DNA from: an uncultured Cytophagales bacterium
Lineage (GTDB): Bacteria > Bacteroidota > Bacteroidia > Cytophagales > Thermoflexibacteraceae
DNA length: 54,064 bases
Assembly (NCBI GenBank): GCA_938039675.1
Contig: CALHUI010000024.1
Location: 1-54,064, forward strand
Direction of reading: 5' to 3'
The notes under the pieces: generated by a model
Seen by the model: only the letters and a program-made list of their open reading frames with translations
What the model was told of the DNA's origin: nothing
Database searches by the model: none
Made by a program: the position numbers and the translations under genes
Part shown: piece after piece, positions 6,645 through 8,389 of the stretch
Position numbering within the stretch: the first letter of the stretch is position 1
How the letters are laid out: each line of letters opens with the position of its first letter

Positions 6645-8389
6645 TTATTCAATATCCAAACCTAACAGGTTGCGCAAATCCTTCAGCAAAGGATTTTGCT
6701 CTGCAAGGAAATTAAATTTGTCGGTATTGGTATAAATTTTTGGCGAAGCGCCTGCTTCGGTTGATGTTACTTCTATCGTTTCAAGGGTCAATGAGGAGTG
6801 GTTCAGTTGCTTTTTCAGAAAGCCGAGCAATTCGTTCCGCACCTCTTTGAGAGCATCTGCATCGGTCGCATTGGTACGCAGTGCATGTGTGATAACCGGA
6901 TACTGAAAAGTAACGGGCTTCCATGTCAGCATACTGACTACCAGAGGCTTGCCATTTTGTTTGTAGTATTCGGCGAAAGCATCCCATGCAGCCTGTACTT
7001 GTTCGGGCGTGGGAGGCGGGCTTTGCATTACCGGCGGCGGTTCTGCTGCAACAAGAGGCGGCGCAGTGTCTTTGGGAGCAGCCACCGGCGGCGGGTTTTT
7101 CTCAACAACGGGCACTTGTATTTTGGGCGCACTTTTCAGCGGCGCATAACCTGCCGTTAAAGACTTTTGCGTAGGTACTTGCCCTTGTGTCTGAGGCTGT
7201 CGGGCTATCAGTTCAGTTTTTTTTTTAAATCCTCGGCCAGTTGGGCAAGATTGATGGCTGAGGTGAGATGTGCCATTTTCATCAGGGCTATTTCTACGTG
7301 CAGTGCTTGGTCTTTGCTGGCCTTGTAGTGGATATCACATTCGTGGCCAATGGTGAGCGCTGAAAGAAGAAAGCCCGTGCGCACTTGGTTGGCTTGTGCA
7401 ATGTATCGCTGTTTAACCTCATCGGAAACCTCGAGCAGTTGCACCGTCGCATTGTCTTTGCAAACCAGCAAATCGCGCAGGTGCTTGTTCAGGCCGATAA
7501 TGAAATTGTGCCCGTCAAAGCCTTGTTGCAATATTTGCCTGAAAATCAACAGCGCAGCAGACAAATTGGCATTCACCAATGCATCAGTTACTTGGAAGTA
7601 ATAATCATAGTCCAGAATATGGAGGTTGGCGATGGTCTGCTTGTAGCGAATGCTTCTGTCGGTTGAAAAAGTTACAATCAGGTCAAACATAGACAGCGCA
7701 TCGCGCAGAGCACCGTCTGCCTTTTGTGCAATTAGGCGGAGTGCTTCGTATTCGGTGTAAATGCCCTCTTTGGCAGCAATATTTGCCAGGTGGTCTGCCA
7801 TATCTTTAATCTGTATCCGATTAAAGTCAAATATCTGACAGCGGGAGAGGATAGTGGGTAGAATCTTGTGTTTTTCGGTAGTTGCCAAAATGAAAATGGC
7901 ATAAGGAGGCGGTTCTTCCAATGTTTTCAGAAAAGCATTGAAAGCTGCCGTGGAAAGCATGTGCACCTCATCTATGATGTACACTTTGCGTTTTCCAAAC
8001 TGGGGCGGATAGCGAACCTGTTCAATCAATCCCCGGATATCATCTACCGAGTTATTAGAAGCAGCATCCAATTCGCTGATATTCAACGATGTGCCGTTGA
8101 TAAAAGCGCGACATGAATCACATTCGCCACAAGATTCGCCTTCCGGTGTAAGATTTTGGCAATTAATTGTTTTTGCCAGAATACGGGCACAAGTTGTTTT
8201 TCCTACACCCCGAGGGCCGCAAAACAAAAATGCCTGCGCCAAATGATTGCTCTTAATAGCATTTTTGAGTGTTGTGGTAATATGTTGCTGGCCTACTACG
8301 GTTTCAAAATTAGCAGGACGATATTTACGGGCAGAGACAATAAAATTTTCCAAATGCTCTAATTCGTTGCTTGGGTTTTGTAGGTGCAA
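6645..8389 (-). CDS. dnaX: DNA polymerase III subunit gamma/tau, coding sequence split by a frameshift at A10
   Basis: The first frame (start near 8389 or TTG 8353, no ATG available) encodes the clamp-loader ATPase: start ENFIVSARKYRPANFETVVGQ, P-loop GPRGVGKT (58-65), zinc-finger Cys77/87/90/93, IDEVHML and LEEPPPYAIFILATTE. It ends at a TGA two codons after a run of ten A (393 residues, gamma-like). The -1 frame continues without a stop from the A run for 190 codons to 6645. That part has a Pro-rich linker, then a domain ending LAEQNPLLKDLRNLLGLDIE as in Bacteroidota tau. The tau product would be about 569-581 residues. Slippage on A10, ribosomal -1 frameshifting or a homopolymer sequencing error are the options. 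Confidence 0.9.
7208..7226 (-). promoter_or_regulatory. Putative recoding/slippage site of dnaX (A10 run followed by a zero-frame TGA)
   Basis: On the coding strand the text is GAG GAT TTA AAA AAA AAA CTG AAC TGA. The ten A (7217-7226) are followed by the zero-frame stop at 7210-7208. One extra A in the mRNA, or a -1 ribosomal slip, moves reading into ACT GAA CTG and the open tau frame. Runs of nine or more A are known slippage tracts for bacterial RNA polymerase and are used by Thermus dnaX. A GAGG just upstream could act as an internal Shine-Dalgarno stimulator. No convincing downstream hairpin was seen. Confidence 0.65.

Follow-up and report, generated by a model that had tools for sequence, protein, structure and literature searches.

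In well-studied bacteria the replisome has tau as one of its essential components. In Escherichia coli dnaX yields two products by a -1 shift at an A-rich site; the available descriptions present this as a ribosomal event on A_AAA_AAG, assisted by an upstream Shine-Dalgarno sequence and a downstream stem-loop, with gamma as the shifted product. In Thermus thermophilus (Larsen et al. 2000) one gene likewise encodes tau and gamma, and in the accessible accounts it slips at a run of nine A, each of the other two frames containing a stop, and tau is the unslipped product (PMC5009743). The reversed arrangement is also already known from the available text of two papers: Antonov et al. 2013 (PMC3711429) reported 17 reversed dnaX genes, nine with ten A, in which the zero frame gives gamma and the -1 frame at the poly-A run gives tau, and proposed transcriptional slippage for them, while Atkins et al. 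2016 (PMC5009743) name a reversed Chlorobium dnaX with E. coli-like stimulators. Outside dnaX, the zero frame of Citrobacter rodentium tssM1 stops soon after an A11 run, and the experiments, in the text available, show that its messages carry 10-15 A and that slippage alone produces the longer protein (PMC4256274). No later study of Bacteroidota dnaX was found among the matches listed in the literature searched, which covered few subscription journals.

The window, a stretch of 54,064 nucleotides from an uncultured Cytophagales bacterium, encodes a dnaX gene with the following features:

8353-7208, minus strand: zero frame of dnaX, gamma, 381 amino acids, probable start TTG at 8353, stop TGA at 7210-7208
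8389-7208, minus strand: mechanical open reading frame of the zero frame, 393 codons, ending ..LAEDLKKKLN-stop
7226-7217, minus strand: slippery run of exactly ten A (T10 on the plus strand), zero frame TTA AAA AAA AAA
7217-6645, minus strand: tau tail in the -1 frame, 190 codons, ending ..LKDLRNLLGLDIE, stop TAA at 6647-6645
7215-7213, minus strand: TGA one codon past the A10, at which the third (+1) frame ends
7234-7231, minus strand: GAGG upstream of the run, within Glu-Asp codons

Both non-tau frames end immediately after the A10, the distances to the first stop being two codons in frame 0, one in +1 and 190 in -1. The N-terminal part matches the NCBIfam family NF011531 (gamma/tau, 614 positions) at 2-374, as well as TIGR02397, and the tail in the -1 frame matches NF011531 at 498-613 (E 2.3e-15); since both match the same family, they are two parts of one gene, which has the AAA+ N-terminal part and the Bacteroidota-type tau C-terminus of DnaX. 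An earlier note made from the letters alone had placed gamma and tau in different frames joined at the A10, with a -1 frame open for 190 codons up to a conserved tau C-terminus, and the family matches bear this out. Its stop two codons past the run stands; its lengths of 393 and about 575 residues probably do not, because the ATG of several relatives aligns with the TTG at 8353, so that gamma probably has 381 residues and tau 569. Four bases past the tau stop lies the ATG of a peptidase M23 gene (PF01551; 5951-6640, minus strand), the translation of which may be coupled to tau and hence to the shift.

The A10 is the sole A or T run of nine or more on either strand of the window; the only two matches to nine A, which overlap, both lie in it, fewer than in shuffled sequence (mean 7.5). 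The 3.28-Mb genome contains four A10/T10 runs, that of dnaX among them. Another of these (L293:1617-1626; C7:41116-41125 in its own genome) sits in a 205-codon open frame without a Pfam match.

Comparison with relatives, which the earlier note had asked for, shows the A10 and the -1 split in all four genomes of the genus (the window and three others, L005-L007; gamma 81-97% identical). Across the family the split is found in ten of the 12 members examined, eight with A10 and two with A11, and in the remaining two, which also have an A10, tau shares the frame of gamma. The marks of a reversed two-ORF dnaX, namely a gamma stop just past a poly-A run, tau in -1 and conservation in relatives, are thus all present, and nothing in the available text of Antonov et al. 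sets the window gene apart from theirs. This conservation supports the earlier proposal that gamma is the zero-frame product and that tau would come from recoding at the A10, with the roles known from E. coli and Thermus inverted, and it suggests that the cell makes use of the shift. Compared with Thermus, the window gene shares the poly-A run, the use of one gene for tau and gamma and the stops in both non-tau frames, but has ten A in place of nine, and its tau would be the slipped and not the unslipped product. The likeness to tssM1, a different gene with A11, lies in a long protein that needs slippage past an early zero-frame stop.

We surveyed 272 loci, of which 269 hold dnaX (three do not) and 266 are distinct; the sampling was uneven and favoured the order of the window, one search supplying the best 80 of 593 matches and the others 30 loci each, with hand-picked stretches added. 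Relative to gamma, tau lies in frame 0 at 145 loci (three of them the TAG loci described below), in -1 at 108 and in +1 at 8, with 5 left unresolved. The -1 loci have A10 in 96 cases, A11 in 8 and A9 in 4; the frame-0 loci A10 in 97, A9 in 17, A11 in 6, A12 in one and a shorter run or none in 24; the +1 loci A10 in 4, A11 in 3 and no run in one. The run thus has exactly ten A at 197 of the 261 loci with a resolved tau frame, the conserved length that characterizes slippage of the Thermus type. Among 20 more distant loci of the phylum, scored for runs only, nine have A9 or A10. Uninterrupted genes without an A-run in relatives, which the earlier note had named as evidence against its reading, are absent from the genus and present only farther away, as the 24 of 145 in-frame loci. 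What in 2013 was an anecdote of 17 genes is shown by the survey to be common in a phylum. The eight +1 loci are L087, L092, L146, L152, L173, L212, L258 and L263, seven of them with A10 or A11 and L092 without a run; L212 and L263 are one A apart from near-identical relatives. At L022 the A10 lies far downstream, about 222 codons past the anchor (end of domain III) and inside an in-frame tau, where it adjoins a G8 run and both off frames are closed within five codons.

From these sequence patterns we consider programmed transcriptional slippage the best-supported mechanism for the window dnaX, and a likely one. RNA polymerase copying the T10 template would produce messages of mixed run length: plain decoding of ten-A messages would give gamma, those with 11 A would give tau, and translation of any other length would terminate within one or two codons, yielding a gamma-like protein. 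Messages, or ribosomes, that have moved into -1 at the run would be the source of tau. If both proteins are made and used, each cell here would rely on a decoding 'error' for its tau.

Several observations point in this direction. At loci with a run of nine or more, both non-tau frames are closed within ten codons in 214 of 236 cases, against 1677 of 7080 linker controls (24%), and this holds whichever frame encodes tau (-1, 102 of 108; 0, 105 of 121; +1, 7 of 7). The third frame, defined as neither the tau frame nor its -1 partner, was scored with one representative per 75% identity cluster (106 in all): among 38 split representatives 87% have it closed within ten codons, and among 45 in-frame ones 91%, the linker controls standing at 54% and 45%. 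A -1 ribosomal shift never enters this frame and polymerase slippage populates all three; its closure therefore serves as a test separating transcriptional from ribosomal mechanisms, and favours the former. Double closure and the fixed length of the A10 together favour, without proving, slippage as in Thermus over frameshifting of the E. coli type. The +1 position of tau at 8 of 266 loci, where the genes of Antonov et al. (PMC3711429, in the text available) have tau only in -1, also counts in favour of transcriptional slippage. Some of the double closure may reflect position or be a remnant: in-frame loci that lack a run of nine or more number 24, and 11 of these are doubly closed at the equivalent site, above the linker controls. 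Within the gamma part of the 106 representatives AAG makes up 615 of 1892 Lys codons, and 14 of the 23 that prefer AAG over AAA nevertheless have the A10; elsewhere in these loci A10 or T10 occurs five further times in 536,797 bases.

The principal rival is programmed -1 ribosomal frameshifting on the A_AAA_AAA held within the A10, as in E. coli dnaX with the products reversed, which the accessible part of the 2016 review (PMC5009743) invokes for reversed dnaX. The dominance of -1 over +1 (108 to 8) is what it would predict, but is equally given by insertion-biased slippage. The tRNA-Lys argument that has been used for Thermus was dropped, as UUU is the sole tRNA-Lys anticodon among 35 of the 37 tRNA matches of the genome examined; the argument is thus inapplicable here and leaves room for a ribosomal shift. 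Such a shift, however, needs seven A and not ten, has no need for a stop in the third frame, and would be expected to leave stimulators of the E. coli kind. Downstream of the run there is no clear structural signal: split representatives have a mean z of -0.51 and their controls -0.14 and -0.14, in-frame ones -0.65 and their controls -0.22 and -0.59. Upstream the signal is weak, with means of -0.82 and -0.78 as opposed to -0.16 and -0.34 in controls, and a stem-loop stimulator was not favoured. Shine-Dalgarno-like motifs within 16 nt upstream are more frequent (11 of 38 split and 11 of 45 in-frame representatives) than in controls (8-10%), but are explained by Glu codon use: before G-starting codons GAG accounts for 19 of 46 cases near the run and 244 of 690 elsewhere. 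An internal Shine-Dalgarno is accordingly doubtful; the GAGG at 7234-7231, to which the earlier note had drawn attention, is present but probably non-functional in this role. On balance we regard ribosomal frameshifting as unlikely.

Less probable by some distance is that ribosomes slide along the poly(A), in a less directed shift, and so make tau from ten-A messages. In the available account of work with an E. coli system, ribosomes do slide along AAA runs in vitro, robustly at A11, which gave much truncated product, but little at A9 or A10. The least credible account is that the split is an artefact of sequencing (a homopolymer error was the main alternative of the earlier note) or of assembly, or else a recent frameshift of the pseudogene kind: homopolymers are error-prone, and the near-identical pairs L212/L216 (99.7%) and L041/L263 (98.6%), each differing by one A and in frame, could be errors, but the run and frame are common to four genomes at 81-97% protein identity to the window and 108 of 266 Bacteroidota loci also have tau in -1, which rules out such an error for the window A10, and the tau tail retains its match to NF011531, so that on sequence comparison the observation is real.

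The survey indicates that the frames have exchanged roles. On a FastTree phylogeny of 261 gamma proteins, a single-gene tree with the run excluded, the tau frame changes at least 36 times, against an average of 90 for shuffled labels. Among A10 loci alone, scored as in-frame or split, there are 24 changes, 20 on merging branches below 90 and 11 on merging those below 95; the lower counts are safer, since the tree rests on one gene and may hold a few tips with run-length errors. In close pairs the flips follow two routes: one A gained or lost, as in L212/L216, L041/L263 and L147/L260, or an insertion or deletion next to an A10 that itself stays the same. Replication slippage was rejected as the origin of every flip, as L144 and L259 (86.5% identical) both have A10 yet differ in frame. 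These repeated polarity flips are new here.

Three Bacteroidales loci (L081, L082 and L104) carry a dnaX without an A-run: an in-frame TAG terminates gamma, and the tau sequence follows beyond it with no change of frame. A search of 99 relatives of the genome of L081 gave 93 matches, from which 30 loci were taken; with the original three these make 33 rows, 31 of them distinct. The sites are as follows:

L081:4080-4140, L082:2769-2830, L104:4083-4145 and L354-L381: TAG sites, TAGATWGCWAGR and about 16 further bases conserved

TAG with tau in frame beyond is found at all 31 distinct loci examined, where the frame past TAG stays open for 172-259 codons. Of the 11 bases that begin with TAG, nine never vary (TAGAT-GC-AG, 31 of 31), and the conservation runs to about +28, inside an otherwise variable linker. 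The element reads TAG AT[TA] GCA AG[AG] followed by a short CGCC-loop-GGCG hairpin, which is predicted at many, not all, of the loci. On its simplest reading the dnaX TAG looks like a candidate for programmed stop-codon readthrough; if so, it would be a new way to make gamma and tau and an unusual programmed readthrough in a bacterial housekeeping gene. Tau may also arise by re-initiation directly after the stop, at a codon that is ATT in 17 loci, ATA in 14 and never ATG; the first in-frame ATG, GTG or TTG past TAG is at least 12 codons away, or absent within 60 codons. The clade, with its conserved context of about 28 nt, is new here, and no report of dnaX TAG readthrough was found in the literature searched, among the matches listed. 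Taking the flips and the TAG clade together, we give about even weight to the proposal that selection keeps the pair of gamma and tau and not a particular frame, the A10 having permitted drift in which the roles were swapped many times, and that one Bacteroidales clade replaced the run by the TAG element, tau being made there by programmed readthrough as a third decoding route.

Reassignment of TAG was ruled out. Tau itself terminates with TAG in six of the 31 loci, so that TAG is a normal stop here, and two further TAG-ended frames are ones we take to be GalE-like and DapF-like. No suppressor-type anticodon occurs among 30 loci out of the 87 tRNA matches in three genomes. Of 396 genomes of the class, none contains the longer element pattern and 16 contain the short one, none of these 16 loci with dnaX; with a cut-off that was too strict, no close relatives of the TAG clade were recovered from the 396. 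In the three TAG genomes each of the element patterns has a single match, and that match lies in dnaX.
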